A DNA stretch of 64,000 nt. It comes from Propionibacteriaceae bacterium (GTDB taxonomy: Bacteria; Actinomycetota; Actinomycetes; Propionibacteriales; Propionibacteriaceae). A program made the position numbers and the translations under genes. The stretch lies in contig JAISHO010000047.1 in NCBI GenBank assembly GCA_031262485.1, positions 1-64,000 of the forward strand. Direction: 5' to 3'. The notes beneath the pieces were generated by a model that saw only the letters and a list, made by a program, of their open reading frames with translations, had not been told where the DNA came from and made no database searches. Positions 141-23,015 of this stretch are shown here, in pieces. The number at the start of each line of letters is the position of its first letter. Positions within the stretch are counted from its first letter, which is position 1.

Positions 141-2609
141 GGATCACCCCCGCATTCGCGGGGATTACATCGCGGCGACCGAGAAGACTGGGAAAGACGC
201 CGGATCACCCCCGCATTCGCGGGGATTACCATCATACTTTGTTGTGTCCATGCCCGAGAGCAGGATCACCCCCGCATTCGCGGGGATTACTGTTCTTACT
301 TGATTGTTGTTGGAGTCAACAACGGATCACCCCCGCATTCGCGGGGATTACCGAGACACTGCGGCGTCTTGGATGCGCTAGACCGGATCACCCCCGCATT
401 CGCGGGGATTACGATGCTTGCGCATGCTGGCTTAGCGTGCTTCGCGGATCACCCCCGCATTCGCGGGGATTACACTACGGCAACGTCGATTCTTCGATAT
501 GAGCGGCGGATCACCCCCGCATTCGCGGGGATTACGTCCTCGATAGCGTCTGCGTAGTCATTGGGGAAGGATCACCCCCGCATTCGCGGGGATTACACAG
601 AACTTCTCTGGGCAGCCACGGGGAGACGCGGATCACCCCCGCATTCGCGGGGATTACAGGCGGAGCCCCTCGGGAATTTGCTCGAGCGCCGGATCACCCC
701 CGCATTCGCGGGGATTACCTTCTCCCCGGGGGAGGATAGGAGGTCGAGAACGGATCACCCCCGCATTCGCGGGGATTACTCACCGCCTGTCAACCATGCT
801 CATGCGATTAGCGGATCACCCCCGCATTCGCGGGGATTACTCGTCACCTCGTCGGCCGTGCTTCGCTGTCGAAGGATCACCCCCGCATTCGCGGGGATTA
901 CGTGTCGTGGCGCATCGACGTCAATAACCAACAGGGATCACCCCCGCATTCGCGGGGATTACTGGGAAGGCGCCCGCGACACCGCGACGAACGTCGGATC
1001 ACCCCCGCATTCGCGGGGATTACGTCGGCGCCACAGCCTCCAGGATGTCCGATGCCGGATCACCCCCGCATTCGCGGGGATTACCAAGGCAAACAACTTA
1101 CGTTAGCCTAGGCCTTCGGATCACCCCCGCATTCGCGGGGATTACTTCAATTTGGCGCCGTCCGGCGCTTCCCAGGTCGGATCACCCCCGCATTCGCGGG
1201 GATTACGGTGCTCGCCACCCGATCGAGTGGCGACGTGGCGGATCACCCCCGCATTCGCGGGGATTACTCAACGATGCATTGAGGTCGTCGACCTCACCCA
1301 GGATCACCCCCGCATTCGCGGGGATTACCCACTTGTAGACCGGGTCGGCCTCACAGGTGTCGGATCACCCCCGCATTCGCGGGGATTACCTTGGGTGGGC
1401 ACCGCCTGCCCGGGGGAGTGGCGGATCACCCCCGCATTCGCGGGGATTACACGCGTCTACAGGCCGTGAAGGCGTTGCAGCGCGGATCACCCCCGCATTC
1501 GCGGGGATTACCGTTTCCACGTCCGGCCAGCAGGACAACATGACGGATCACCCCCGCATTCGCGGGGATTACATCACCACCCTCATTGAAGGACTTGTCA
1601 CAGCCGGATCACCCCCGCATTCGCGGGGATTACTCTGCCCCGCCTAGGGGAGAGTTGACCCATCGAGGATCACCCCCGCATTCGCGGGGATTACTCGTTT
1701 TTGTAATCGTTTCCATCGCGCGTTCCAGGATCACCCCCGCATTCGCGGGGATTACTAGACCTTGTCGAGGACACGGGCAGCCACTGACGGATCACCCCCG
1801 CATTCGCGGGGATTACGCTGTGACGCGACTAGCCCGATAGGCGGGAGTCGGATCACCCCCGCATTCGCGGGGATTACTGACTGGGTCTCCTAATTCGCCA
1901 GGAATATGTCGGATCACCCCCGCATTCGCGGGGATTACCCAGCCCTCAGGGGCTAATTGTCGTGCAAGGAGGGATCACCCCCGCATTCGCGGGGATTACA
2001 TCTTGAGCCGCTCGTTCTCCTCGGCAAGTGCCGGATCACCCCCGCATTCGCGGGGATTACAGCGCCACGCGCCCGCTGATCCGGTACCAGGTGGGATCAC
2101 CCCCGCATTCGCGGGGATTACCTTCCGCACGGCGGCGACTAGTTCAGCCCCGGCGGATCACCCCCGCATTCGCGGGGATTACGACGTGCTCACGCGCGCC
2201 CCTCGGTAGACGAGCGGATCACCCCCGCATTCGCGGGGATTACTTTCACCGTTTTCTATTCCTATAACCCGCCTAAGGATCACCCCCGCATTCGCGGGGA
2301 TTACTCAACGGAGCCCTTGAAGGTCTCCATCGCCCCAGGATCACCCCCGCATTCGCGGGGATTACTTGGCGAGGAAGCTGAAAAGCTCCTCCTCGGCCGG
2401 ATCACCCCCGCATTCGCGGGGATTACTGAGGAGATGGTTAGAATGGCCGATTCCACTACGGATCACCCCCGCATTCGCGGGGATTACACAAAATGAGAGG
2501 ATGATTAACGTTGTCTAAGCGGATCACCCCCGCATTCGCGGGGATTACGTGGATCGATTCGGCGATCGCCTCGAGGCCGGCGGATCACCCCCGCATTCGC
2601 GGGGATTAC
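141..2609 (-). CRISPR. type I-E CRISPR array, 41 repeats and 40 spacers
   Basis: I located 41 copies of a 28-nt repeat, starting at 141 and every 61 bases after that; the last is 2582-2609. One step, 446 to 508, is 62, so that spacer is 34 nt and all others are 33. The repeats look identical, including both end copies. On the minus strand the repeat begins GTAATCCCCGCG and ends GCGGGGGTGATCC, giving a hairpin stem CCCCGC/GCGGGG with a GAAT loop, as expected for a Cas6e substrate. The base after each repeat on that strand is G in 29 of 41 cases, T in 9 and C in 3. This fits the Escherichia type I-E scheme of a 29-nt repeat whose last base comes from the PAM, with 32-nt spacers. The orientation of cas2 and of the repeat puts the leader at the 2609 end. 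Open reading frames inside the array are translations of the repeat and are not genes. Confidence 0.97.
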
Positions 2610-2700
2610 ACTTCTTGACTAGGAACGATACCCCATGGAGGCTCCTCCTTCATTCGAAGCTGGGCTCTGCGTGTCGGATCCTGAGGACTCACGATCCTTC
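2610..2700 (-). promoter_or_regulatory. CRISPR leader, overlapping the 3' end of cas2
   Basis: Only 9 bases separate the cas2 stop codon from the first repeat, so any leader of normal length must lie within the cas2 coding sequence. On the minus strand the last bases before the repeat contain TGGGGTATCGTTCC and AGTCAAGAAGT. A loosely similar series of words (TGGGGT, GTTC, AGTC, GAA) precedes the orphan repeat at 13418. I see no convincing sigma-70 promoter here. The outer boundary given is arbitrary. Confidence 0.45.
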
Positions 2701-3101
2701 TGCCGAGACGCATGCCTCTGCTCGACGGCGTTCTTATATCTCCGCCGTCGTTCAACGTTGCTCATAGGACGGCGACGCTTTTTTTCTGCCTCATGTTCAT
2801 GGTCTTCATCTGTCGAAACCGATTTCTTCGCACTTGGGCGGCGCATGAGGGTGAATCCGTCGTAGTCGACGGGGATCCAAGCGTGATTGTGAACTTGAAA
2901 GGCAAGTCTCTGCTCGTTGCGAGTCGTCCAGACCATGATCGCTCTCCCTCTTCCAACGTCATCTTGAATTCTCGCCCACAGATGCTGACGAACTCTCGCA
3001 GATAAGTGACCCACATATACTCCGGTGGCTATCTCAAGAAGCCATCTGGTGAGAACCCCGCGGAGACGCTCCGGGGTCACGGACAGCACCACCACTACCA
3101 T
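2619..3101 (-). CDS. cas2: CRISPR-associated endonuclease Cas2, type I-E, with basic tail
   Basis: Cas2e is the dimeric core of the Cas1-Cas2 spacer integrase. Residues 1-90 form the ferredoxin-like Cas2e fold, with the N-terminal strand MVVVVLSVTPERLRG and the late segment WIPVDYDGFTLMRR. Cas2e is usually about 95-120 residues; this protein has 160. The extra 70 residues are hydrophilic and contain a basic stretch at about 106-135 (EKKRRR, ERRRRYKNAVEQRH, RQKDR), probably helical or disordered. The ATG overlaps the cas1 stop by 7 bases, so translation is probably coupled. The stop lies 9 bases before the first CRISPR repeat, so the tail is encoded by the leader region. The tail could bind DNA, contact the acidic Cas1 tail, or simply be leader DNA read as protein. 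Confidence 0.93.
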   Translation of the reverse strand: MVVVVLSVTPERLRGVLTRWLLEIATGVYVGHLSARVRQHLWARIQDDVGRGRAIMVWTTRNEQRLAFQVHNHAWIPVDYDGFTLMRRPSAKKSVSTDEDHEHEAEKKRRRPMSNVERRRRYKNAVEQRHASRQKDRESSGSDTQSPASNEGGASMGYRS

Positions 3102-4192
3102 GGCAGTGCCTCGTCGTCATCATCGAAGATGACATCGTCATCGGTGCTCTCCTCAATCTCTTCAGATCCCGCTATGGAGTCTTCTCGAGACCGAGCATCT
3201 TTTGGTGACAAGGCTTGACGCATGTCATCGTCAGGTCCACCGTATGACGTTCCACCGGGGACGGAGCCGTCGCGTCCATCCCACAACTTGACAATTTCAG
3301 CCATGCCATCGTCCTCCGACGAGGCGCCAGAGAGGCCGAGCAAGAGCCAGGTGACGTCACGCACACACCGTTGAGCCAGTTTGGCTTCGAACATACGATC
3401 CCGCATGAGGCGGCGCACGTGAGCGCCGATATCGGTCACATCGGCAGCGGCCGCCTCGAAAGCGACCGGGATCGCCAATTCCGCCTTGTAAAGGTCGGCG
3501 ACGTCGTAAACGAAGGATCGATCGTGACCAGTATGAACAAAACCCAATCCGGGCGAACAGCCTAATGCCACGATGACGGCGTGAACGATGCCATAGAGAC
3601 ATGTCGTCGCTGCGGATAATGCTTGGTTGACTGGATCTGAGGCGGCGAAATCATCGGGGCGATACTCACGCCCAGTCCATTTCACTCCGGTCTTTGCAGC
3701 TTGTTCACGATAGACGCGACGCACCCGAGCGCCCTCACGACCCCGCAGTTGCTGCATCGTCAAACGGGAGACATTCTCCCCAGCGAAACGCATCTCGTAC
3801 ATCGCCCGTGCCACCGCTAGGCGTTTATCCCGGTTCGACACAGCCGCAGCCTGCGCTTCCAACAAACGCGACGAGTGCGACAATCCCCGGCCATGAGCGT
3901 AATACCGCACCCCTTTTTCGCCCGTCCACACGACCGTCGACCCACTCTCTGAGAGAAGCGTGACCGCTTGATGGGTGATGCTCGTGCCGGGCCCGAGCAG
4001 AAGGGCGCTCACGGCAGCGGCCGGGATATGCACTGTGCCCTCGTCATCAGTCGCTGTGATCGCGCTCGCATCTCGGGAGATGATCGCGCGCTCGACATAA
4101 ATGAACGACACCCGGTCTTGGACCCGAACGAGTTCCTGGAGCGTGGCTGGTTTCGCTCCAGGAACTGGCCGGACAGTGGTGTCGTCACTCAT
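3095..4192 (-). CDS. cas1: CRISPR-associated integrase Cas1, type I-E, with acidic tail
   Basis: Cas1e is the catalytic subunit of spacer integration. The three metal ligands can be placed: E153 in QLRGREGARV, H220 in GLGFVHTG and D233 in YDVADLYK, matching E141/H208/D221 of the Escherichia enzyme. At 365 residues it is about 60 longer than usual. The surplus is a C-terminal tail from about residue 310 dominated by Asp and Glu (EDSIAGSEEIEES, then DDDVIFDDDDEALPW). It lies 3 bases after cas6e and overlaps cas2 by 7 bases. The N-terminal beta domain and C-terminal helical domain look intact, so the enzyme is probably active. Confidence 0.95.
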   Translation of the reverse strand: MSDDTTVRPVPGAKPATLQELVRVQDRVSFIYVERAIISRDASAITATDDEGTVHIPAAAVSALLLGPGTSITHQAVTLLSESGSTVVWTGEKGVRYYAHGRGLSHSSRLLEAQAAAVSNRDKRLAVARAMYEMRFAGENVSRLTMQQLRGREGARVRRVYREQAAKTGVKWTGREYRPDDFAASDPVNQALSAATTCLYGIVHAVIVALGCSPGLGFVHTGHDRSFVYDVADLYKAELAIPVAFEAAAADVTDIGAHVRRLMRDRMFEAKLAQRCVRDVTWLLLGLSGASSEDDGMAEIVKLWDGRDGSVPGGTSYGGPDDDMRQALSPKDARSREDSIAGSEEIEESTDDDVIFDDDDEALPW

Positions 4193-4195
4193 GGT

Positions 4196-4846
4196 TCAGC
4201 GTGGCGGGGCCAAGGTGAGAAGACCACACCCGTAAGCCTTAGCCGCTCCAGCACCTTCTGTGAGAGTCCGACAAAGCGCCTCGGGGTTATTAACGATGAG
4301 AATCCCATCGAATGTCGCTTTCGACACCGTCACCGGTTTACCTTGGCGTTGGAATCGCTCGACGAGACGATCATGGACGACGACTTCCGCCCTCCCCTCA
4401 TGTTCGGCGACAATGAATCCCCACTTTTCCGCACGATCAAGAAACCATTGCCGCTGCTGAGTGACGGTGACATGGCCCACACGTTTCGTCTCTCCACCTT
4501 CGCGGATCCGGACAGAGTGAGAAGGATTCGCCGTCATACGAAAAGCCCAGCGTTGCCCGTCTTCAAGTCGGTTGAGGAAGCCAGAATAGTCACGGCTGTC
4601 CCAGGTGTCGTTCAAATCAGGCCACCCAGCCTGTTCCGTCAGCGAACTGAAACCTGGTCGTGGTTCACTCACCACATACAGCCAGGTACGGCCCCGATCT
4701 TGGTCAATACGCCACAACACCCGACCTCGCTCGTCGGCCGGCTGTGGGAAACACGCGAGGACAGCGGCATGCATAGCTTGTGACGAACCGAGGAGCTTGC
4801 GAGCTCCACGTCGCTGAGGATTGATCTGAACCCGGGAAAGATGCAT
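4196..4846 (-). CDS. cas6e: type I-E CRISPR RNA endoribonuclease Cas6e
   Basis: Cas6e cuts the pre-crRNA at the base of the repeat hairpin and stays bound to the 3' handle in Cascade. The N-terminal strand MHLSRVQINP and the segment QAMHAAVLACF are typical; the His in MHAAV is in the position of the catalytic His of the Escherichia protein. The C-terminal glycine-rich loop AGAAKAYGCGLLTLAP contacts RNA in this family. The chosen ATG at 4846 has GGAGG 7 bases upstream; a GTG directly before it at 4849 is the alternative. It overlaps the cas5 stop (ATG shares bases with TGA). Its length of 216 residues is normal. Confidence 0.93.
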   Translation of the reverse strand: MHLSRVQINPQRRGARKLLGSSQAMHAAVLACFPQPADERGRVLWRIDQDRGRTWLYVVSEPRPGFSSLTEQAGWPDLNDTWDSRDYSGFLNRLEDGQRWAFRMTANPSHSVRIREGGETKRVGHVTVTQQRQWFLDRAEKWGFIVAEHEGRAEVVVHDRLVERFQRQGKPVTVSKATFDGILIVNNPEALCRTLTEGAGAAKAYGCGLLTLAPPR

Positions 4847-5574
4847 CACTCCACCTCCAGCGCGGCCATCGGATCATGACTCCAGCGGCTATTCGCAGAC
4901 TTTTTCTGACGTGAATCCGGATTCGAGATCGTGATATGACATGACGACACCTGCCGCCATCCCCATTGCCGCGATTCCGGATCAAAACTGACCGGCGCGT
5001 CAGCCGTCGTCATCAGAGTCACGTGGTCTTCATCATCGGACATCGAGGTGGAATCGATTCGAACCTCGACAGACACATTTTCTTGTTGTTTGACGCGCCA
5101 CCACGTCGACGCTTGCCACGGCTCCTGAGTGAGCGCCTCCCACAGGCCGATCGGGCGCGTTCCAAGGGTGACGGGACCAACGGGCGGGCAAGATCGCCGT
5201 CCCAGAAACAAGGGAAACCGTGGATGCCGCAAAGCGTCATCCAGGGTTGAGATGAGATCGTCTTCTCCGCTCACCGCCGCCAGAAAAACACCATCGGCGA
5301 TGTAGTAGCGATTCGTCAGAGGAAAAGATTTCCCCTCCGCTGTCCGAGCCGTCTGGAAATCACGTTCGATCTGACCGGGTTGGTCGATTCTGACGCCGAA
5401 GCTCAAGCTGAGCAGGTCCTCGAGAGGATCGGTTCGACGCAACCCTTGAGCGGCCGCCAACAGCCCGATCACTCCACTCTTGGTCGGAGCACGGTCTGTC
5501 ATCCGTCGGGTGAAGCGTGACGAACTCCCCCACGCCTGCAAGGGCGCGGCGAGGCGCACCATGAGCGTTGCCAC
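4846..5574 (-). CDS. cas5e: Cascade subunit Cas5e
   Basis: Cas5e caps the 5' handle of crRNA in Cascade. The N-terminus MATLMVRLAAPLQAWG followed by SSSRFTRRMTDRAPTKSG, then VIGLLAAAQG, is the hallmark of the family. The 242 residues are near the usual length. The start is a GTG at 5574 with GGAG just upstream; an internal ATG at 5562 is also possible and would give a start closer to the Escherichia protein. One base separates it from the cas7 stop, and it overlaps cas6e. Confidence 0.94.
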   Translation of the reverse strand: MATLMVRLAAPLQAWGSSSRFTRRMTDRAPTKSGVIGLLAAAQGLRRTDPLEDLLSLSFGVRIDQPGQIERDFQTARTAEGKSFPLTNRYYIADGVFLAAVSGEDDLISTLDDALRHPRFPLFLGRRSCPPVGPVTLGTRPIGLWEALTQEPWQASTWWRVKQQENVSVEVRIDSTSMSDDEDHVTLMTTADAPVSFDPESRQWGWRQVSSCHITISNPDSRQKKSANSRWSHDPMAALEVE

Positions 5575-5575
5575 G

Positions 5576-6736
5576 TCAGCTCCACGATGAGGTGGCGTCA
5601 GCGTTTCCGGAGCCCGCCAAACCTAAACGTTGTGACACCGCCTCACCCACGGAATGAACGAGACCATCGAAGCTCATCCGTTCTCCCGTTCCGTTCAAAG
5701 CTTCGCCAACTTCTCCGATGCCCATCACCCAAGTTTCCACCGGACCACTTCCGTATGCATCGCTCACCTCAGCCGCATGTTTGGCAAGGTTCTTAGCTGA
5801 TGCCACCGACCGTCCGTCATCCAGCGATGTTTTCACCGGCTTTTCGAAAGCTCCGACAAGGGAGACCGATTGATCGTCGCGCAAGGATACGACGACGCCT
5901 TCCGGCAAGGTTCTATTCGCGAAGGTGTTCTGCTTGCCCGTCGGCATTGAACGGACAAATGACTTGGTGAAAGCCTCGACGGCGCGCTTCGTCGCCTCAT
6001 CGTCGCCAAGATTTTTGCGAAGCAAATCAACGTCGAGCGTCGCATAGCGATAGAGGGTCGCGGAGTCGAATTCGACCGTGCCGATCATTCCGGCGCCGGC
6101 ATCCTCCTCTGCATCAGCCTGCTTGTGGTCATCCACAGCAGTGAAATAGTCATACTCGATCTCAACGGGGTGGGTTGAGAGGGCGTGCGCCACCTGGCAG
6201 GAAGCGTCGACGTTGAGATCCGAGACGTCGGCGACCATCCGGCCGAACAAAGCCAGATCGATCGAGTTCTTCCCCTTGACGAGAGATTGAGCTTCCTTCT
6301 TATCTACGGCATCACCTTCCGAGAAAGCCCGATAAGCGAGTTCGGCGAGCGCATCGATCTGAAGAGCTGAGACGAACATGAGATAACCGGATTCGGGGAT
6401 CATCCCCTTCTTCGGCTCTTTCACCTTGATGCCGGTGGCATCCCAGACCGCTTTCGCCGCCGTACGAGCGTCCTCCTCGGATAATTCTGGATGCTTCGAG
6501 GCGATCGCCTCACCAACCAATTCGACGATTCGTTTCGTCCGTGTTCCTAAGTCACGTTCGTCGAGGTAATCGCGGAAGTCCTGCCGGGTTGCCCTCTTCC
6601 ACGCTTGTGAAGACACGCGCGCTCGGCGGACACCGCCGTACGGCGCCGTCTTCGGAGAACCGGTGTCGTCCCGGTTGAGATTGCTCGGGGGAACCGTCTG
6701 AAGAATATGGAAATCAAGAATCGTGCGGGTCATCAT
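5576..6736 (-). CDS. cas7e: Cascade backbone subunit Cas7e (CasC)
   Basis: Six copies of Cas7e form the crRNA-binding backbone of type I-E Cascade. The N-terminus TILDFHILQTVPPSNLNRDD, with GSPKTAPYGGVRRARVSSQAWKR split just after it, is diagnostic. The length of 386 residues is slightly above the usual 350-370. The gene begins ATGATG, overlapping the cse2 stop by 4 bases, so it is probably translated by reinitiation. Confidence 0.95.
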   Translation of the reverse strand: MMTRTILDFHILQTVPPSNLNRDDTGSPKTAPYGGVRRARVSSQAWKRATRQDFRDYLDERDLGTRTKRIVELVGEAIASKHPELSEEDARTAAKAVWDATGIKVKEPKKGMIPESGYLMFVSALQIDALAELAYRAFSEGDAVDKKEAQSLVKGKNSIDLALFGRMVADVSDLNVDASCQVAHALSTHPVEIEYDYFTAVDDHKQADAEEDAGAGMIGTVEFDSATLYRYATLDVDLLRKNLGDDEATKRAVEAFTKSFVRSMPTGKQNTFANRTLPEGVVVSLRDDQSVSLVGAFEKPVKTSLDDGRSVASAKNLAKHAAEVSDAYGSGPVETWVMGIGEVGEALNGTGERMSFDGLVHSVGEAVSQRLGLAGSGNADATSSWS

Positions 6737-7395
6737 TTCTCCTCTGAAACTGTCGGGGATTGTGCGGGGGAACGGTCGAGCCAGTGGTACTGACGGCCCC
6801 AGCGGCGACGCACCTGGTCCGCTCCGCCAGGGCGTTGGAACGCCAACAGATCATCGGCTAGCCGACCATAATCGAGCCGGATCGGCGCGGAAGCCGAGCG
6901 CATTTGAGCTATGAGGCCACGCATGTGAACCACAGCCTCGTCGAAGGTCGTCGCTGTCACCACTTGGTTGAATCGGCGGCGAACCGGAGAGACCTGATCG
7001 CCCGAATCGCCGGGACCGGCTTGCGCTTTCTCCAGATTGTGGACGGCTTGTCCGAATCCAATCCCCCGCCCGTGAACCGTCTCGGTCTGAGACTGCCGAT
7101 GAAGGGCGAATAAGGCCATCGCTGTATGGATCGCCCACTCCTCGGGAACCGGATCATCGCTCCCCGGCTTATGGGCATAAGGAACTTCGTCCAGGGTGAC
7201 CGACCACACGCGCGGATCCTCACCCGGGGAATGTCCAAGAGAGCGGCGCAGGTGAGCGAGCGTCGCTTTCGTCGTTGACGACTCAATCGTCTTCTCGAGC
7301 CATGAGATTTTCCCATCGACGTAACGAGCGACAGGAGACGTTGCGCCGTAGACGCTTCTCGTTGTCTCCTGAGTCGGAGTCCCCTGGTCATCCAT
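6733..7395 (-). CDS. cse2: Cascade small subunit Cse2 (CasB)
   Basis: Cse2 forms a dimer on the Cascade belly and stabilises the R-loop. This protein is all-helical, with the conserved YVDGKISWLEK near the N-terminus and a C-terminal RLDYGRLADDLLAFQ segment. I chose the ATG at 7395 because AAGGAG lies 7 bases upstream; an open frame extends to 7464 but would overlap cse1 by 77 bases. With this start it has 220 residues, longer than the 160 of Escherichia but common in actinobacteria. It overlaps cse1 by 8 bases and cas7 by 4. Confidence 0.92.
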   Translation of the reverse strand: MDDQGTPTQETTRSVYGATSPVARYVDGKISWLEKTIESSTTKATLAHLRRSLGHSPGEDPRVWSVTLDEVPYAHKPGSDDPVPEEWAIHTAMALFALHRQSQTETVHGRGIGFGQAVHNLEKAQAGPGDSGDQVSPVRRRFNQVVTATTFDEAVVHMRGLIAQMRSASAPIRLDYGRLADDLLAFQRPGGADQVRRRWGRQYHWLDRSPAQSPTVSEEK

Positions 7396-9151
7396 GTGTC
7401 TCTCCTTCTCTGGATGTCGCCTCGTCCGCCCCAACCGATGTAGCCTCGGTACTCGCTCCGTCATCGTCAGTTCGATAAGCCTCTGGGAGCGCTTTCCTTA
7501 ACCCTGATCGGAACCAGGCCTCGGCGAGACCGGCGTCGAGGTAACGGTTCATCATCGACGTCTTGACTTGCCGCCCGACGTAGGCGACGGGGGTCGCATC
7601 GTCGAGGATTCTCTGGGCCACCATCGATCCGACCTCATTTAGAGTTGTCTTCCAAGCGATTTCCCGTTCTCTGAGGTCGGCATCGGCAGCCAATGTGACG
7701 ACCCATTCTCGAAAGACCGGTTCGAAAGCGGCGTAGGCCTTCTCCAACCCGACATCGCGAGCGTGGTCGGCAGCTGTGTCTTCACCGGAGGCGAAGGCGA
7801 TATTGCGCGCCAAGTCGCCTAGTTTTCTGGCGATGTCTTCGGCGAGAGCGATCATGTCCATCACCGTTCTTGCAGCGTTCTCATACCCTTGAGTGAACAA
7901 GATCGCCGGGAGTTTGATTGTCTCGGCAACGAGATCGGAGTAGACAGCGTCTTGGGTTCCATACTCCATACCGACAGCCTGAAGCTCGATAAGGGGGGAC
8001 CCCCCAGTCTCGCCCTCCGGACGCCGTTGGACTACCCCGATCCATCGCAAGACTGCCGGTGCAAGCGTACGAGCAGGGCCTGACCGACCTGGGGAATGTT
8101 GATCGACAGAAGGCAGCAGTGCCGGAAGGCCACGCCATAATGCCCGTGTGGGGTCATGTTTGCGGGGCATATAGGTGTCGTACCCAAGCGCTTTCGTCTG
8201 CGGCTCCGAATAGCGCCACCCCGTCATCGGTTCCACCACGTGCCGGTTCTGTGGAGTGGCACGATCACCTTGACAGTTCAGGACTCCCGTGACTCGTGAG
8301 TGCTCTTCATCGTCGAAAAGACGAATACGACGTGACGGCCACGTGTAGAGGTCCACCTGTCCCTTTGGTTGACGGTATTTCTTCCCTTGCTTATCTCCGG
8401 GATATTCCGGCGAAGCAGTCAGAGACGGACGTTCCCAGACCGGCTCGTCGGCATCTGAATCTTCCGCCACACCGTCGAGACCCACCGTGGCCGGGACAAT
8501 AAGATTAGACAGCAATGTCTCCTGAAGATTCCGGCCGACGAGGTTGATCCCACCGATCTGCCCGGCCCAGCCGGTGCCGATCCCATAGCCTTTTCCCCCT
8601 TTGACTCGTGCGTCCCCGACAGCCCCCGAGTGAATTCCCGAAATATCGTAAGCCTGGCAATGGATGAGCCATCGGGCAGCCTCAGCCCATGATAGGGATT
8701 CCAGCCCTGCACCCAGCCGAGTGCTGAGGAATGTCGACGCGCCCGGACCGTCACAGATGAGCCGGGAAAGGTCGAAGATCTCGTCCTTCGCCGTGCGAAG
8801 ATCGGGGACTTGCATGAACGGTTCGACGGGATGGCGCATCCAGAACCGGTGATGCCATATGTCAAGGTACTCATCAATCTCTTCGACGACCCCCGCCCAA
8901 TCGGAACGGATATCCTCCCACTCATCAAAAGAATGAGGCCCCCGACAGGCTCGGTGAAGAACTGCCAGCAATACTCGGAGAATCGCAAATGATTGCGTCG
9001 GCAACTCCCCGGCAAGTGCTCGGATCTCCTCAGCCTGATGGAACACCTCACGAAGCGAGACCTCGGACGTCTTCCCACCCTCGTCGAGGACCGCGACCCA
9101 CGGCTCATCAACGAGGTTGAAGGTCATTTCTGGGGTTGGAGTCTCCCTCAT
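7388..9151 (-). CDS. cse1: Cascade large subunit Cse1 (CasA)
   Basis: Cse1 recognises the PAM and recruits Cas3. The N-terminal MTFNLVDEPWVAVLDEGG, the central CDGPGASTFLSTRLGAG region and the C-terminal four-helix bundle with NRYLDAGLAEAWF identify the family. It has 587 residues from the ATG at 9151, which is preceded by AGGAG; an internal ATG at 9127, preceded by GGGAG, starts right at MTFNLVDEP and fits homologues slightly better. The gap to cas3 is 69 bases, the only sizeable gap inside the cas operon. Confidence 0.94.
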   Translation of the reverse strand: MRETPTPEMTFNLVDEPWVAVLDEGGKTSEVSLREVFHQAEEIRALAGELPTQSFAILRVLLAVLHRACRGPHSFDEWEDIRSDWAGVVEEIDEYLDIWHHRFWMRHPVEPFMQVPDLRTAKDEIFDLSRLICDGPGASTFLSTRLGAGLESLSWAEAARWLIHCQAYDISGIHSGAVGDARVKGGKGYGIGTGWAGQIGGINLVGRNLQETLLSNLIVPATVGLDGVAEDSDADEPVWERPSLTASPEYPGDKQGKKYRQPKGQVDLYTWPSRRIRLFDDEEHSRVTGVLNCQGDRATPQNRHVVEPMTGWRYSEPQTKALGYDTYMPRKHDPTRALWRGLPALLPSVDQHSPGRSGPARTLAPAVLRWIGVVQRRPEGETGGSPLIELQAVGMEYGTQDAVYSDLVAETIKLPAILFTQGYENAARTVMDMIALAEDIARKLGDLARNIAFASGEDTAADHARDVGLEKAYAAFEPVFREWVVTLAADADLREREIAWKTTLNEVGSMVAQRILDDATPVAYVGRQVKTSMMNRYLDAGLAEAWFRSGLRKALPEAYRTDDDGASTEATSVGADEATSREGETHG

Positions 9152-9220: not shown

Positions 9221-12200
9221 TCATCGATCAGTGTTAGGCATCATTGCTTCGTCATCAATCATTAAACCCTTGAGAGGATCGTAACGATACGTGTGCGCGC
9301 CGACGGTAGCGACACCCCGATGATTAAGAGGAAGTATTAGTTGTCCTGCCAATCCGGCGGCGTCCGTCCCCTGCCAAGCCTCGGGCATGAAATCGGTGAG
9401 TTCATCGATGAGAACGTCACCCTCGGCTCCCTGGCAGAGCCACGACGGCAGACCGACGGCACAGCCAGCCAAGGCGCGACATTGCCCGTTCGACGGAGCC
9501 GCGTCTCTGGGGACGAATTGCCCGGCTTGACGGTGGCTCCGTCCCGTCTCCGGATCATTGATCCACGAAGGGATCCTCCAGCGTTCCCCTTCCTGCGCCT
9601 CGACGATGATGACCTCGAAGGAGTCATTCGTGTCTCGAACCTGCGCTCGCCCACGGGCACGGGCGTCATCGGGATCACCGATCGAGGTATCGAGCCATCC
9701 GCACAACGATGATTCTCCTGGGGGGCGGGGCGATCCAAGCCGAAAACTCGTCGCTTTGCTCTCTGACTCGTCTCGTCGGGCGTCATCGGCATTCTTCGCT
9801 ATGGCTAACTCCTCCTGCCACGCAGGTGGCCCCAGAGGAACGTCACCGTAGGTCTCATCGACCAGAGGGGCGATGTCGTATGGGAGGTGAACCACACCAC
9901 CGCTGTCGGTGAGGTGGCGAACTTGGGCAGCGGTTCTCAACAACAGATAGTCACCGTAAACACGACGGCTGCCACTGTCAATGACGGAGGGGTTTGCTTG
10001 CCATTGATCAGCGACGACAAGACATCGAGGTTCACGCATGCCCGCCGGGCGGGAGTCGGTCGGCCGATCATGGCGATGCAGGCGCCCGATGCGCTGAAGA
10101 AGGAGATCCATCGGTGCGAGATCGGTGACAATGAGATCGAAATCGAGATCGAGACTCTGCTCGACGACTTGCGTGGCGACGATAATGCGACGAGCGGGCC
10201 GCCGCCCCGAAGACCCGAGCTCATCGACAAGTCGCTTCTCCTTCGCTTTCCGATCAACCGCGAGGAACCGGGCGTGGAGCAATTCGACATCACTCGAATC
10301 GAATACGTCAGCTATGGCTCGATAGGTCTCTTGCGCTCGGCGGACAGTGTTGCGCAGGACGAGTACGCATCCTCCACCTCTTGCCTCCGAGATCACGCGA
10401 TCGATCGTCGTCTCGTCATCAATACATTCCAGTCGCACCACGCGAGCGCGGTTCGAAGGAGGAACGGGCTCGTGACAAGTGACTCCCCCGCGGCGGAAAG
10501 AAAGCAGTGATGAGACGACGGGGGACACGGCTTCAGCAGCCATGTCACCGACCATGACGCTATGACTTCCCGCCTCAGCGTCGCCGACTCTCCGACCGCG
10601 TCCACGACCGCGCTTCCGTGTTCCTTCACCTGGCCGATCGTCGTTCTGCGGCGTCGATGTCTGCCTCCATACCGCCGCTCCCTTCTCGTACGCCTTCTCC
10701 AGACGATCCCGTAGCCCCCGGGGCAGCGTCGCTGAGAGAGCGACGACCGGAGTGCCGTACGCACCCAACCATTCGAGGGCTCTCAATAGATACTTATTCA
10801 TATAGGCGTCAAACGAATGGACCTCGTCGAGCACGACGACCTTACGAGCGAACGACAGGTGACGAAGTTCCACGTGTCTCGACTGCAACGCCGCGAACAG
10901 AACCTGATCAATAGTGCCGGCGACGAAGTCGGCCAAGATACCTTTCCGACGTCCGGTCATCCACCGATCGACGTAGGCGGCCCCGCTCTCTTGTCGAGAA
11001 CGTCTCGGTGATTGTTCAAACGGCGACGATGCGACACCGTCTCCGTCTCGGTCCATATCTGTTGGCATCGGAGAACCATGAGGGAGATTGATGTAATCAG
11101 GATTGAGCCACGCCTTGCCGTGGGCTAAAAACACTGATCTGCCAGATTCGTCCGTGTCTCCCAAGAACGGATCTGCGGAGATAGGGGCATTGTCGGGAAT
11201 GTGGTCGATCCAGCGCAGCAGCCGACGGAACATGGCGTCGCTCGTCGCCTGAGTGGGGAGCGCGACGAATACTCCACCTGCGCCGGTGCGTGCGGCGAGG
11301 ACCTCCGCTGCCATGAGGCCGGCTTCTGTCTTTCCCTCCCCCATCGGGGCTTCGATGATGAGTAAACCTGGCGCGTCCATCGTCATCGCCGCTTCGACAG
11401 CGGCGACCTGGATGGGACGAGCCACCGACCCCTTCGGCACATCGAACCGTTCATGAAGCATGCACTCGGCAGTGGTTTCTCTGTTCCACGACACCCGCCA
11501 AGGGGAGGGCAAACGAATCGCGTCCCATGCCCGTTCGAGACGTTGCTCGCTCTCTTCAGACGGCTGGGGCAAGGAGGAATCATCTGATATCGGTGTGAGG
11601 GGATAGAAATCTGTGTTCGAGGCGAGCCAATCGGCGACGACGACAATGGAGAGAAGAAGCGACAGAGCGGTGTCCGGCAGGCGCTTCCACAGATCCGACC
11701 TCAGATCTTCGACAACCCCGGAACGTTCCGCCATATGATCTAGCAGTTCGTTTTGAACCTCTTGCCAGCGGCCCTCCCCCCGTAGGTCCTTTTCCGTTGG
11801 CCCCATTCCGTGAAAACCATCGAATTGATCAACTTCGTCCCCTCTCGGGGGAACACCATGGTGCCCACCGACGACTGATGCCAACGCCATCGCCGTGTGC
11901 TCCGACCATCCGAAGGAATCGCAGAGCCACCACGTCATCAAGGCGCACCCCGCCAATCCGTGGTGAAACTCTCGACGATTGCGAAGATCCTTTGCCTCTC
12001 TCGGCATCGACAATCCCTCGAGAAACATCCCATCGCGGAGACGGGGAACCTGGATCGCGAACGCCGGCGTCGCCTTGCCGATATCGTGAACTCCAGCCAG
12101 GAAAGTCACGAGCGCTCGGGCCTTTTCCGGTCCCCCGGCATAACGTCCGATGAGGCTGCGGACGGAATCGGGTAACCAGCGATCCCACAGACGTCCTGCG

Positions 12201-12427
12201 ACATCCGCCGAGTCGTAGAGGTGGCGCCACAAGGGGTTCCACAGCTCGATCGGACCATGCATCGGCCAACTCTTGGCCCAGCATGAGCGGGCGGCCTGGG
12301 TGAGTGGACGAAGTGGAACCGCCGGGGATTCAGTGCTAGTATTAGTAACACGACGGGCCGGAGTCCGGAACGTTGTCAGCGGGGACCCTTCGGGGTCCCC
12401 TGCTTTTTGCTCATTTATGGACGCCAT
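9221..12427 (-). CDS. cas3: CRISPR-associated helicase-nuclease Cas3 (HD plus DExH)
   Basis: Cas3 is the ATP-driven nuclease recruited by Cascade to degrade target DNA. Domains in order: HD nuclease, residues 45-275 (LWRHLYDS at 67-73, GVHDIGKATPAFA at 112-124, FHHGLAG near 155, VGGHHG near 190); helicase, with Walker A MGEGKT at 362-367, LDEVHSFD at 533-540, a SAT motif (ALSATLP) and motif VI QRIGRLHRH; then a Cas3 C-terminal domain. At 1068 residues it is longer than the usual 890-950, with a 40-residue N-terminal lead and low-complexity inserts such as GTRKRGRGRGRR. I see no other in-frame start before the conserved LTQAARSCWAKS, so ATG 12427 is used. It overlaps the upstream DUF3800 gene by 13 bases. 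All catalytic motifs look intact. Confidence 0.94.
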   Translation of the reverse strand: MASINEQKAGDPEGSPLTTFRTPARRVTNTSTESPAVPLRPLTQAARSCWAKSWPMHGPIELWNPLWRHLYDSADVAGRLWDRWLPDSVRSLIGRYAGGPEKARALVTFLAGVHDIGKATPAFAIQVPRLRDGMFLEGLSMPREAKDLRNRREFHHGLAGCALMTWWLCDSFGWSEHTAMALASVVGGHHGVPPRGDEVDQFDGFHGMGPTEKDLRGEGRWQEVQNELLDHMAERSGVVEDLRSDLWKRLPDTALSLLLSIVVVADWLASNTDFYPLTPISDDSSLPQPSEESEQRLERAWDAIRLPSPWRVSWNRETTAECMLHERFDVPKGSVARPIQVAAVEAAMTMDAPGLLIIEAPMGEGKTEAGLMAAEVLAARTGAGGVFVALPTQATSDAMFRRLLRWIDHIPDNAPISADPFLGDTDESGRSVFLAHGKAWLNPDYINLPHGSPMPTDMDRDGDGVASSPFEQSPRRSRQESGAAYVDRWMTGRRKGILADFVAGTIDQVLFAALQSRHVELRHLSFARKVVVLDEVHSFDAYMNKYLLRALEWLGAYGTPVVALSATLPRGLRDRLEKAYEKGAAVWRQTSTPQNDDRPGEGTRKRGRGRGRRVGDAEAGSHSVMVGDMAAEAVSPVVSSLLSFRRGGVTCHEPVPPSNRARVVRLECIDDETTIDRVISEARGGGCVLVLRNTVRRAQETYRAIADVFDSSDVELLHARFLAVDRKAKEKRLVDELGSSGRRPARRIIVATQVVEQSLDLDFDLIVTDLAPMDLLLQRIGRLHRHDRPTDSRPAGMREPRCLVVADQWQANPSVIDSGSRRVYGDYLLLRTAAQVRHLTDSGGVVHLPYDIAPLVDETYGDVPLGPPAWQEELAIAKNADDARRDESESKATSFRLGSPRPPGESSLCGWLDTSIGDPDDARARGRAQVRDTNDSFEVIIVEAQEGERWRIPSWINDPETGRSHRQAGQFVPRDAAPSNGQCRALAGCAVGLPSWLCQGAEGDVLIDELTDFMPEAWQGTDAAGLAGQLILPLNHRGVATVGAHTYRYDPLKGLMIDDEAMMPNTDR
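12380..12407 (+). terminator. UUCG hairpin with T-run, antisense within the start of cas3
   Basis: GGGGACCC at 12381-12388 pairs with GGGTCCCC at 12393-12400 around a TTCG loop and is followed by TGCTTTTTGC on the plus strand. This has the form of a strong intrinsic terminator for plus-strand transcription, yet it lies within codons 10-16 of cas3, which is transcribed the other way. The same stem sequence is used after the formate-THF ligase gene (13588-13607). In cas3 mRNA the complementary hairpin has a CGAA loop and could reduce early translation. Confidence 0.5.
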
Positions 12428-13185
12428 TTATTTGAATACCTGAGAACTGGCTTCAGCCTGTTGAATAAACTTCGAGTTGCTCTTGACGCTTTCGGATGCT
12501 GGTTAGCAACTTCAGTATGACGCCTTACGATATAAGCAACCAAATCAGCGGCTTGAACTCCGGTACACCCCGAAGAATCAACAAATTTTACAGAGTCATC
12601 AATATTCAATAGCCTTCCCGGGTGGGACGAAGAGGCAGCGAGGCTCGATCCATCGATGACTCGTCCAAACAACGTCTGTGCATCCACGTTGCTCAATCCG
12701 ACTTCGTCCGCGATGATCTGCGCCTTGCCCCCATTGCCAGACTCGCACCATAGATTTACCTGTTCAAGGGCACGCCTCATACCGACTTCATACGGTTTTG
12801 CAGGATAGCTAAACCTCTGGTTCAGACTTTCAACGTCCACGCCCTGAACAGCCGCTTGCGCTCCACTCTCGACGATAGCCTCAATCAGCCTGCCGTAGAG
12901 TCTCACTGCGTCTCCAACACGTCCGCGAAGTGAGGACCACCCTCCCTTTCCCTGCATCATTTCATGAGCATGGAACTCCATGTTTGGGGAGATCCCATAG
13001 CTTGGATGGATACCTTCTCGAATTCTCGCGAAGCCATCCTCAAGAGAAACAACTTGACTCTCCGTCATCAAGAGAGTGGCCACGTAGTGATCCGTATCTC
13101 TCTCCGTGTAGCTCTCGTCAGCAAAGATCCAAAGGTCTCCACTACTCGCACGCAGATCGAGAAAGGATGGCCTCGTCGTGTCCAC
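12415..13185 (-). CDS. DUF3800 family protein, coupled to cas3
   Basis: DUF3800 proteins are predicted RNase H-like enzymes of unknown activity, often found in mobile or defence contexts. Visible motifs: LWIFADESYT at 18-27, EFHAHEM at 70-76, QIIADE at about 156-161 and GVQAADLVAYIVRR at 209-222. The acidic set D23, E70, D160 and D214 is laid out like a DEDD active site. I prefer the GTG at 13185, with GGAGG 6 bases upstream, over the TTG at 13197. The stop codon lies 13 bases inside cas3, so the gene is the first of the cas operon and is probably co-translated with cas3. It is not a standard type I-E component. The fold is inferred from motifs; a role in interference or adaptation is unknown. 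Confidence 0.8.
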   Translation of the reverse strand: MDTTRPSFLDLRASSGDLWIFADESYTERDTDHYVATLLMTESQVVSLEDGFARIREGIHPSYGISPNMEFHAHEMMQGKGGWSSLRGRVGDAVRLYGRLIEAIVESGAQAAVQGVDVESLNQRFSYPAKPYEVGMRRALEQVNLWCESGNGGKAQIIADEVGLSNVDAQTLFGRVIDGSSLAASSSHPGRLLNIDDSVKFVDSSGCTGVQAADLVAYIVRRHTEVANQHPKASRATRSLFNRLKPVLRYSNKWRP

Positions 13186-13228
13186 GTCGTCCTCCAACCT
13201 GATCCATCTTGGACTACTTAATTTTACT

Positions 13229-13253
13229 AGACCAACGTCTTGAACGTTCGTCT
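13229..13253. promoter_or_regulatory. candidate operator upstream of the DUF3800-cas operon
   Basis: AGACCAACGT and ACGTTCGTCT form an inverted repeat with 9 of 10 matching positions around a 5-base centre. It lies about 44-68 bases upstream of the DUF3800 start, immediately beside TAAAAT (minus strand), which could be a -10 element. A repressor bound here would control the whole cas operon. No regulator gene is adjacent. Confidence 0.35.
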
Positions 13254-13260
13254 ATTTAGG

Positions 13261-13289
13261 ACGATAGTATCGTTCCATGAATTCGTCAA
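13261..13289 (-). promoter_or_regulatory. candidate cas operon promoter
   Basis: On the minus strand TTGACG (13289-13284) is followed by TACTAT (14-base gap) or TATCGT (17-base gap). The -10 region is itself a perfect palindrome, ACGATA-G-TATCGT at 13261-13273. The second spacing is normal for a housekeeping promoter; the first has the better hexamer. It is a candidate only. Confidence 0.35.
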
Positions 13290-13349
13290 GGACGAGACGC
13301 GTCGATGCTCCTTCCTCTGCCCTAGAGATAGGTTCCTCTACGCCTTCCG

Positions 13350-13474
13350 CTCAGCTGTTAGATTAAAACGATCCCAACTGCTGCTGGGGTGATCCCGTTC
13401 AAGTCGTGGGTCTCGAAGTGCTCCCCGCGTATGCGGGGGTCGTGGCCCCTGGGTCCTCCAGGGGCCACTTATAT
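13350..13474 (+). other. orphan CRISPR leader plus single type I-E repeat and hairpin
   Basis: At 13418-13445 there is one I-E-like repeat, GTGCTCCCCGCG followed by TATGCGGGGGTCGTGG. It matches the main array repeat at 21 of 28 positions, including the whole CCCCGC/GCGGGG stem, but has a GTAT loop. It is on the plus strand, opposite to the cas genes. The preceding 70 bases are leader-like, with an AT-rich stretch (TTAGATTAAAACG) and GGGGTGATCC. The last four bases of the repeat begin a perfect 11-bp hairpin, GTGGCCCCTGG with CCAGGGGCCAC (13442-13468), followed by TTATAT. No second repeat follows. It could be an array that lost its spacers or a short regulatory RNA. Confidence 0.6.
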
Positions 13475-13579
13475 CGAATACCGACCTTCCCAGCTTTGGG
13501 CTAACCTGGGACTCATAATCCCCGGGTCCTCCTCTCCCGTCTTGAGCGGTGATGAGGCCGGGGTATTTCTTTGCCCTGA

Positions 13580-13608
13580 AATAGCGAGGGGACCCCGAAG
13601 GGTCCCCT
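13580..13608 (-). terminator. intrinsic terminator of the formate-THF ligase gene
   Basis: On the minus strand GGGGACCC-TTCG-GGGTCCCC (13607-13588) is followed by TCGCTATTTC. The stem lies 26 bases after the stop codon. The T-tract is short, but the UUCG loop makes the stem very stable. It has the same stem as the antisense hairpin inside cas3. Confidence 0.7.
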
Positions 13609-15515: not shown

Positions 15516-15752
15516 GCCTAGTGGTCTGTCGCGTCTAAATGTTGAGGTTCGGGGTGTTCGGTGGGGTAGCCGGCAAGGCGGAGGAGGAGTCGGTAGTGGA
15601 CCTACCCGATTGAGTGAGCGATCGTGTGCTCGCACACGAATCGTGAGCGATTGAGGGTTGACCGTAGGGAATACCGGCGACGACGACAACGCGGCCGGGT
15701 GCCCTACCGGGCGCCACGAATGCAACATTTTAGGCGCGACGGGCCACTAGGC
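15516..15752. mobile_element. MITE-like element with 29-30 bp inverted ends
   Basis: The left end (15516-15544, starting GCCTAGTGGTCTGTCGCG) and the right end (15723-15752, ending GCGCGACGGGCCACTAGGC) are imperfect inverted repeats; about 25 of 29 positions match. The 237-bp interior has no convincing gene and contains one copy of the 69-bp repeat also found at 22862-22999. The size, terminal repeats and lack of coding sequence fit a miniature inverted-repeat transposable element. No clear target-site duplication is visible. Confidence 0.6.
15604..15673 (+). repeat. copy of a 69-bp dispersed repeat
   Basis: It starts ACCCGATTGAGTGAGCG, contains the hairpin CGTGTGCTCGCACACG and ends with GGGTTGACCGTAGGGA. 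It differs from the copies at 22862 and 22931 by a few substitutions. It lies inside the MITE-like element. Confidence 0.75.
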
Positions 15753-17395: not shown

Positions 17396-18439
17396 TCAAG
17401 CGAACCATCCCTGATCATTCAGTTGGATCAACGCCGCCTTCACATGAGGCTCGGTGAAGAGTTCGGCTTTCCGCGTGTTCCAGCTCGCCACCTTCTGAGC
17501 CACGGCCGCAGGATCATCGGACGATGCGCCTTCACGCCGCACCAGCCAGTGGACTGTTCCCAGAAGTTCAAGTCCATACATCGAATCGAATCCCTCGGTG
17601 AGATCGATGACCCGATCAATCCGCTTCCTCGTGTTCGCATCTTGGCTCAACACTTTCTCCGCAGACTCCCAAGCCCCCGGGAGAAGAGAGAACGACGAGT
17701 CCGTCGACCGTGCGGTTCCGTCGCCGTATCCGATGGTGTATACCCCCTCTGTCTCGATGAGGACATGACGGAGATTGTCCGCATAAGGGCCATACGTTCC
17801 CCGTTCGAAGCGGAGACGCAAAGGCTGCCCTGCCTCCTGAAGGAAATACATCAATTTCTGCACTTCGATGGGGGAGGTATCGAAGGCGGTCGTCAAATAG
17901 CGCCCCACCACCGACACGAGCGCGGCCCGGTTCACCGTCAATGGTCGCGGCGGTGTAGCCCGCGTCATCTTCTGGGCTGGCGGCGCCCCTAGGGGCTCGT
18001 AGAGGAGAACTCTCAACCCGGGAATATCACCCAAGGCTTCGACAATTCTCGGCTTCACAGCGGACCACGGGAGGCCACCATTACCCGCTCCGAGCGGGGG
18101 AACAGCGATCGAGGTGATTTCGTATTCTTTGATCACTCGCACCAGATCGACGAGACCCGCCTCCACATCGCCGAGAAGTGAAGGGGAACGCCAATGACGT
18201 TTCGTGGGAAAATTAATGATGTAACGCGGGTTCGAGAACGCCCCCGTCGGCCAGACCATCATGCGACCGATCTCGACCTCGCCAGCCTTACAAGCCCGCT
18301 TATAAGAAGCGAAAAGGTCCGGGTAGGCGCGTTTGAATTGCAGAGCGATTCCCTTGCCCATGACGCCAACCGTGTTCACCGTATTGACCAAGGCGTCGAC
18401 ATCGGCCTTCAACAAGTCACCGCTGGCTTGTTCGATCAT
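17396..18439 (-). CDS. darG: DarG-like macrodomain antitoxin
   Basis: DarG reverses the ADP-ribosylation of thymidine in DNA made by DarT and also binds the toxin. The N-terminal macrodomain (about 1-155) shows ASGDLLKADVDALVN, TVGVMGKGIALQFK and VPPLGAGNGGLPW. The C-terminal part (about 170-345), starting TVNRAALVSVVGRYLTTAF, is the toxin-binding domain of full-length DarG. I chose ATG 18439 (AGAGAGG upstream; homologues start at MI...GDLL). ATG 18460 overlaps the darT stop as ATGA and is the alternative. It lies directly after darT. The function follows the DarTG family and has not been shown for this pair. Confidence 0.9.
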   Translation of the reverse strand: MIEQASGDLLKADVDALVNTVNTVGVMGKGIALQFKRAYPDLFASYKRACKAGEVEIGRMMVWPTGAFSNPRYIINFPTKRHWRSPSLLGDVEAGLVDLVRVIKEYEITSIAVPPLGAGNGGLPWSAVKPRIVEALGDIPGLRVLLYEPLGAPPAQKMTRATPPRPLTVNRAALVSVVGRYLTTAFDTSPIEVQKLMYFLQEAGQPLRLRFERGTYGPYADNLRHVLIETEGVYTIGYGDGTARSTDSSFSLLPGAWESAEKVLSQDANTRKRIDRVIDLTEGFDSMYGLELLGTVHWLVRREGASSDDPAAVAQKVASWNTRKAELFTEPHVKAALIQLNDQGWFA

Positions 18440-18456
18440 CGCTGTTCCTCTCTCTG

Positions 18457-19131
18457 TCATTTGAAGTACCAGTCCCTCTCAACCCGTGGAACGAAACGCT
18501 CTTCACCATGGGAATCAAGAATCCGCTGAACCCGCCGCCCGACCTCTTCGTCGCGGACCACCACCTCAGCGATCGCTCTCCATGGAACAGACTGATAAGC
18601 CAGGCATTCCGCCATTCTGCATTCTTTACGATCCGGATATTCGGCCGTGTTCTTCCATACCTTCTCCTTCATCAACGGCCAGTCGATGAACCCATCTGTG
18701 AACCACCGCTCGTGGTCCGTCGAGAATTCCGCAATGCCAAGAACTGCGTTACGGTCCGTCAGCACGAGAGAACACCCCTCGCTCATCAAACGTCTAATCG
18801 ACGTCACTAGATAGATCAGCTCTCTGGCTGAGCCCTCGAAAGTTGCGACGCCTCCTGTGCTCCACTGGTGCGGATTCGTGATGAGGTACAACATGGGGCT
18901 CCGGGGAGCGAAGTAAAAGGGAACATAGTCAGCAACCACTCCCCCGGGGGAACATGTCACCACCCTTCGACGGCGCCTCTCCTTGATGGTCTGATGACCG
19001 GCCTCCATGGTCAAAGGGCCATCCCCTCGGATAAGAAGATCGCACTGAAGCCCGCTGTCGATGATTCCATCGAGATGATCCACATGGGTGAAGTGGAACA
19101 CTTGACGATCGTCGGCAGTGCTCGGCTTCAT
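18457..19131 (-). CDS. darT: DarT-like DNA ADP-ribosyltransferase toxin
   Basis: DarT uses NAD to ADP-ribosylate thymidines in single-stranded DNA, which blocks replication; some systems act against phage. Diagnostic segments are VFHFTHVDHLDGIIDSGL at the N-terminus, VVADYVPFYFAPRSPMLY in the centre and the C-terminal KECRMAECLAYQSVPW, which contains the family's catalytic-region Glu. The ATG at 19131 is preceded by AAGGAGG, a strong site. It has 224 residues, normal for the family. It is the first gene of the toxin-antitoxin pair and overlaps the possible longer darG start by 4 bases. Confidence 0.92.
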   Translation of the reverse strand: MKPSTADDRQVFHFTHVDHLDGIIDSGLQCDLLIRGDGPLTMEAGHQTIKERRRRRVVTCSPGGVVADYVPFYFAPRSPMLYLITNPHQWSTGGVATFEGSARELIYLVTSIRRLMSEGCSLVLTDRNAVLGIAEFSTDHERWFTDGFIDWPLMKEKVWKNTAEYPDRKECRMAECLAYQSVPWRAIAEVVVRDEEVGRRVQRILDSHGEERFVPRVERDWYFK

Positions 19132-22861: not shown

Positions 22862-22999
22862 ACCCGATTGAGTGAGTGATCGTGTGCTCGCACACGAATC
22901 GCGAACGATTGAGGGTTGACCGCAGGGAACACCCGATTGAGTGAGTGATCGTGTGCTTGCACACGAACCGCGAACGATTGAGGGTTGACCGCAGGAGAA
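22862..22999 (+). repeat. tandem pair of the 69-bp repeat
   Basis: Two units (22862-22930 and 22931-22999) start ACCCGATTGAGTGAGTG and end with GGGTTGACCGCAGG. Each contains a hairpin of the type CGTGTGCTCGCACACG; the second has one base changed in the loop. A third copy is at 15604. Two units without spacers do not make a CRISPR array. Confidence 0.85.
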
Positions 23000-23015
23000 C
23001 CACCGACCCGCGAGT

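Follow-up and report, generated by a model that had tools for sequence, protein, structure and literature searches.

A DUF3800 gene between a CreR-like guide and cas3 in a type I-E locus of a Propionibacteriaceae bacterium: a probable case of regulatory capture

CreR, a crRNA-like RNA that regulates cas genes, is known from CRISPR types I-B, I-E and V-A (PMC13131331; Liu et al. 2023 as cited in PMC12948488). It has been reported to act in autorepression, both in type I-E (PMC13131331) and in type I in general (PMC12737573). In CrePA, a protein toxin, CreP, which is typically a KilA-N protein, is paired with a crRNA-like antitoxin (PMC12737573). Some type V-A2 and VI-F loci have in turn been reported to encode DUF3800 proteins (PMC10910872, PMC12669027). 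The locus described here has features of all three. It lies in the window, i.e. the whole stretch of 64,000 nucleotides analysed (positions 1 to 64,000 of the forward strand of contig JAISHO010000047.1, assembly GCA_031262485.1), and resembles CreR in having two degenerate repeats, a partially matching spacer and a PAM just upstream of a cas operon, with mismatches that across loci fall in the six-base register of Cascade; it differs in that a non-cas gene, DUF3800, stands between target and cas3, and in that the guide is encoded antisense to cas3. As in CrePA, a protein gene lies downstream of the target of a Cascade guide, but here that gene is contiguous with the cas operon, and its toxicity is hypothetical. 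The DUF3800 protein shares its family, its RNase H-like predicted fold and its place at a CRISPR locus with the type V-A2 and VI-F proteins, but it belongs to a class 1 type I-E locus, has no TPR domain and is so placed in a single genome.

The type I-E set of the window is complete, comprising cas3 (9221–12427) followed by cse1, cse2, cas7e, cas5e, cas6e, cas1e and cas2e (2619–9151), all on the minus strand and downstream of DUF3800. Each of the eight genes matches its own NCBIfam (above cut-off) or Pfam model, and cas2 is followed by an array of 41 repeats (GTAATCCCCGCGAATGCGGGGGTGATCC; 141–2614, minus strand, limits approximate to a few nucleotides) with spacers of 33 nt (one of 34). The DUF3800 stop codon, TAA at 12415–12417, lies within cas3, whose ATG is at 12425–12427, giving by direct reading an overlap of 13 nt (12415–12427). 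No other gene lies between the two, and the preceding gene, FTHFS, ends with a stop at 13634, beyond which lies a terminator-like hairpin of its own. The first-pass annotation of this DNA had DUF3800 leading a type I-E operon and running 13 nt into cas3, and the coordinates and gene models bear this out; its proposal of a shared promoter region is consistent with the layout. The Cas3 proteins of relatives mostly begin shortly before a conserved LSxxARxxWAKS motif, some 30–40 residues later than that of the window, which starts 41 residues earlier than the motif-proximal position, at an ATG within the DUF3800 tail; these first 41 residues are without counterpart in most relatives. As the ATG lies inside the DUF3800 tail and no in-frame ATG, GTG or TTG of cas3 was found between residue 2 and residue 55, the present cas3 start appears to have been supplied by the end of DUF3800.

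Several other features of the neighbourhood were recorded. The cas2 product (2614–3101) has 160 aa compared with the 87 positions of its model, and as its extra C-terminus ends a few nucleotides from the first repeat, the array leader would fall inside cas2. A DarT–DarG toxin–antitoxin pair (17396–19131; PADLOC E 2e-58 and 2e-124) lies ~4 kb from the CRISPR locus, and a dispersed 72-nt repeat with an internal palindrome (GTGTGC..GCACAC) is present in three copies (15604–15675, 22862–22933 and 22931–23002), the latter two with 93% and 85% identity to the first.

The DUF3800 gene itself (12415–13185, minus strand) encodes 256 aa from a GTG at 13185 that has a good ribosome site, GGAGG, at 5 nt; its frame is intact, and the open frame extends from a TTG at 13197 (12415–13197), which is a possible alternative start. 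The protein belongs to the DUF3800 family, matching PF12686 over residues 24–227 of the TTG form (E=5.5e-10; score 40.6 bits, cut-off 21). PADLOC and NCBIfam contain no model matching it, PHROGs returned weak matches only and a sequence search of the PDB gave nothing significant. The base composition of the gene is foreign, with a GC content of 51% (GC3 51%) compared with 60% (68%) for cas3 and 65% (87%) for FTHFS. An AlphaFold2 model of the protein has a mean pLDDT of 90, and its best match by VIA-align is RNase HII (Z 12.3, 3.0 Å over 167 residues), the top rows being RNase HII and RNase HIII chains. Support from Foldseek was weaker: its top PDB match, likewise an RNase H, has E=7e-3, and none lies below E=0.001. 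By predicted fold, the DUF3800 protein is thus RNase HII-like, a likeness that concerns the overall predicted fold. With RNase HII and RNase HIII (PDB 1eke, 2d0a) it shares this fold and an acidic DE pair on the first strand, but identity is 11–17% and DUF3800 has the extra invariant residues E70 and S204. Across 15 aligned homologues, D23, E24, E70, D160, S204, Q211, D214 and R222 are invariant, Q211 and D214 forming the QxxD motif of the family. The four acidic positions singled out in the first-pass annotation as an RNase H-like arrangement (D23, E70, D160 and D214) are therefore all intact and all invariant, and the fold modelling that it had proposed points the same way.

The pairing of DUF3800 with type I-E genes was compared between species, each genome sample comprising one genome per species. 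Among 395 genomes of the class, DUF3800 is present in 43, Cse1 in 73 and both in eleven, yet the two stand at one locus only in the genome of the window; in the others, by comparison of coordinates, they are on separate contigs or separated by hundreds of kilobases. Likewise, 11 of 197 family genomes have a DUF3800 homologue and 64 a Cas3-like match, the two being linked in the window's genome only, and when the surroundings of Cse1 or of DUF3800 were retrieved from close relatives, they too showed no linkage. A CRISPR accessory gene would be expected to recur beside one CRISPR type, and in these samples DUF3800 is beside type I-E at one locus only. The nearest homologues (about 40–44% identity) are solitary genes at unrelated loci, and more distant ones are found on actinobacterial plasmids and in one prophage (IMG/VR); the phage records searched contained none. 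The congener G008 has two partial homologues on different contigs (L020:2851–3318 and L021:7581–8054; 59% and 52% identity to the DUF3800 of the window).

Upstream of DUF3800, on the plus strand, lies a CreR-like gene (13368–13445) made up of a degenerate repeat, psiR1 (ACGATCCCAACTGCTGCTGGGGTGATCC, 13368–13395), a 22-nt spacer (CGTTCAAGTCGTGGGTCTCGAA, 13396–13417) and a second degenerate repeat, psiR2 (GTGCTCCCCGCGTATGCGGGGGTCGTGG, 13418–13445). The matrix score of psiR1 is 9.1 and that of psiR2 20.6, compared with a maximum of 5.5 among 600 shuffled 700-nt strands; psiR2 is the only copy of the repeat outside the array within three mismatches in the genome, and none of 400 shuffles gave such a pair of repeats around a spacer, the arrangement characteristic of CreR. 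A strong predicted hairpin directly 3′ of psiR2 (13442–13468, plus strand) is a possible CreR terminator. The spacer matches the minus strand at 13225–13246 at 18 of 22 positions, a match equalled in one of 20,000 Markov regions; when an AA PAM is required, the match is 15 of 18 with AAC (shuffle p 0.0005). Target and PAM (13225–13248, minus strand) lie in the leader or promoter of DUF3800–cas3, 40–60 nt before the DUF3800 GTG and just downstream of a weak sigma-70-like promoter, TTGACG-17-TATCGT (13261–13289, minus strand), of which ~0.9 sites are expected by chance. We infer that the target site is the promoter region of the operon. The mismatches are at positions 8, 12 and 18, so that the six-base register is only partly regular (8 instead of 6), and the gene points away from cas3, unlike the CreR of relatives. 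Even with E up to 5 allowed, Rfam, including its DUF3800-associated RNA families, gave no match over 9–20 kb of the window, and at gathering scores seven homologue loci yielded one tRNA and nothing else. The possibility that CreR had arrived together with DUF3800 was rejected: none of 14 DUF3800 homologues has a psi-repeat or other repeat-like site upstream, and CreR would therefore belong to the cas locus. The element would be a CreR-like cas autorepressor.

Of a further 29 loci inspected, eleven type I-E loci of the same family have this architecture upstream of cas3 (L024, L028, L029, L064, L066, L067, L068, L071, L072, L073 and L074). Their spacers are mostly of 21–23 or 33 nt, with limits set by hand in several cases, and their AAN-flanked partial targets lie 31–477 nt upstream of the conserved cas3 start. 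None of these eleven has DUF3800 at the cas locus; the order is CreR, target, cas3, and in the window CreR, target, DUF3800, cas3. Individually, three of the eleven target matches are weak (shuffle p 0.04–0.07). With an AA PAM required, 19 of the 24 cells for positions 6 and 12 are mismatched, as opposed to 6 of 120 elsewhere (Fisher p 2e-14), and the pattern holds when no PAM is required (15/24 versus 13/120, p 2e-7), both p-values being somewhat overstated as the related loci are only partly independent. Without the requirement, AAN stands beside 10 of the 12 best targets, and shuffled spacers show no six-base mismatch pattern. In Cascade, a type I crRNA leaves each sixth base unpaired, and the six-base pattern across loci is for this reason taken as the mark of real Cascade targets.

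A 21-bp inverted repeat brackets DUF3800, its promoter and CreR, enclosing 1185 bp. The left arm (12381–12401, plus strand) lies inside the 5′ end of cas3 and is terminator-like on the plus strand, with a GCTTTTTGC tail, and the right arm (13587–13607, minus strand) is the hairpin ~27 nt after the FTHFS stop codon. The repeat is perfect, both arms are UUCG hairpins and only these two copies exist in the 2.84-Mb genome; the pair was accordingly rejected as a common terminator of this genome. A dedicated invertase was also rejected, the genome having no PF00239 match and two PF00589 matches, both on other contigs, which makes an active switch unlikely. When positions 12402–13586 are flipped in silico, the stem of the FTHFS hairpin goes from 9 bp to a perfect 11 bp (14 bp in the predicted fold) and gains the GCTTTTTGC tail, at −28.7 compared with −23.5 kcal/mol, so that a canonical terminator is restored, and CreR comes to lie in the orientation of cas3, 316 nt upstream, at a distance close to those of the relatives. 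This hints that the enclosed segment was inverted in this lineage, and the DUF3800–cas3 overlap may be a recent and accidental product of that inversion; repeat and flip together count against the overlap as an adapted coupling. Pressed to its conclusion, such an account leaves DUF3800 without any role in CRISPR immunity: the gene would once have faced FTHFS, the two sharing one bidirectional terminator, until an inversion between the hairpins, or one accompanied by hairpin duplication, set the DUF3800 3′ end against cas3. The uniqueness of the perfect repeat, the improved terminator, the reoriented CreR and the solitary state of the homologues all favour it, but the flipped cas3 would have no in-frame ATG, GTG or TTG before residue 56 and a TAG just upstream, the flipped CreR target would face DUF3800 instead of cas3, and the unflipped order was seen in no relative, the 18 congeners having no FTHFS. 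Weighing both sides, we consider this account possible but rather unlikely.

Other explanations give DUF3800 a function. A guard similar to CrePA, in which a toxic DUF3800 nuclease is silenced by Cascade and the crRNA-like RNA until release by an anti-CRISPR kills the infected cell, would accord with the CreR target lying directly before DUF3800 in either orientation of the segment, with the existence of crRNA-like guides that repress protein toxins (PMC12737573) and with the RNase H-like predicted fold and its intact acidic residues; as relatives have the same element upstream of cas3 in the absence of DUF3800, however, plain cas autoregulation suffices, and within the cas transcript as laid out DUF3800 would rise at every cas induction, so that we find a guard improbable. 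More speculative, and more improbable still, is that DUF3800, promoter and CreR constitute a possibly invertible cassette bounded by the inverted repeat, in which a putative RNase H-like toxin of a new class would be silenced by Cascade in the manner of CrePA and the orientation of the cassette would also set expression of the cas operon. The least probable in our estimation is the original proposal of the first-pass annotation, namely that DUF3800 serves type I-E interference as a dedicated accessory, either nuclease or regulator. Of that proposal, the operon layout, the predicted fold, the acidic residues and the coupling to cas (strengthened by the CreR-like guide) stand, and precedents exist in type V-A2 and VI-F; these precedents are however class 2 systems, and a conserved role in interference is not borne out. 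The search that it had suggested, for DUF3800 immediately upstream of type I-E cas3 elsewhere, found no case in 395 class and 197 family genomes, so that its own caveat of a pairing confined to this strain largely applies (one genome, with one genome per species sampled); the homologues are solitary, and the overlap may be a by-product of inversion. These comparisons yield no evidence for DUF3800 as a dedicated component of interference.

The explanation to which we give about an even chance is that a mobile DUF3800 gene entered the type I-E locus and, now a captured passenger or add-on, separates cas3 from the cas promoter under CreR control. DUF3800 would then probably head a cas operon that represses itself, co-expressed and co-repressed with the cas genes. 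Cascade loaded with the CreR guide would bind the target and repress a single transcript running from DUF3800 through cas3 and cse1 onward; once Cascade is diverted by immune crRNAs or anti-CRISPR proteins, repression would be lifted, DUF3800 would be made first and cas3 would be translated by coupling at the 13-nt overlap. Further from the observations, DUF3800 could be a metal-dependent nuclease that provides a second line of defence, separate and possibly self-harming, through use of the cas regulatory switch. Counting against capture are its occurrence in one genome only, the weak promoter match, the inverted repeat, the orientation of CreR and its less regular mismatches, and the Foldseek result. 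Regulatory capture of DUF3800 by a CreR-repressed operon, with induction when Cascade is titrated or blocked, nevertheless seems to us the likeliest reading; DUF3800 is probably a captured extra gene that is switched on with CRISPR and not a conserved part of interference.

If this is true, the locus would show that in nature a stand-alone nuclease gene of defence type can come under RNA-guided type I-E self-repression, and blocking Cascade would switch DUF3800 on. For the family as a whole, the set of CreR-like guides in the six-base register of Cascade constitutes a testable prediction on how cas operons are controlled.
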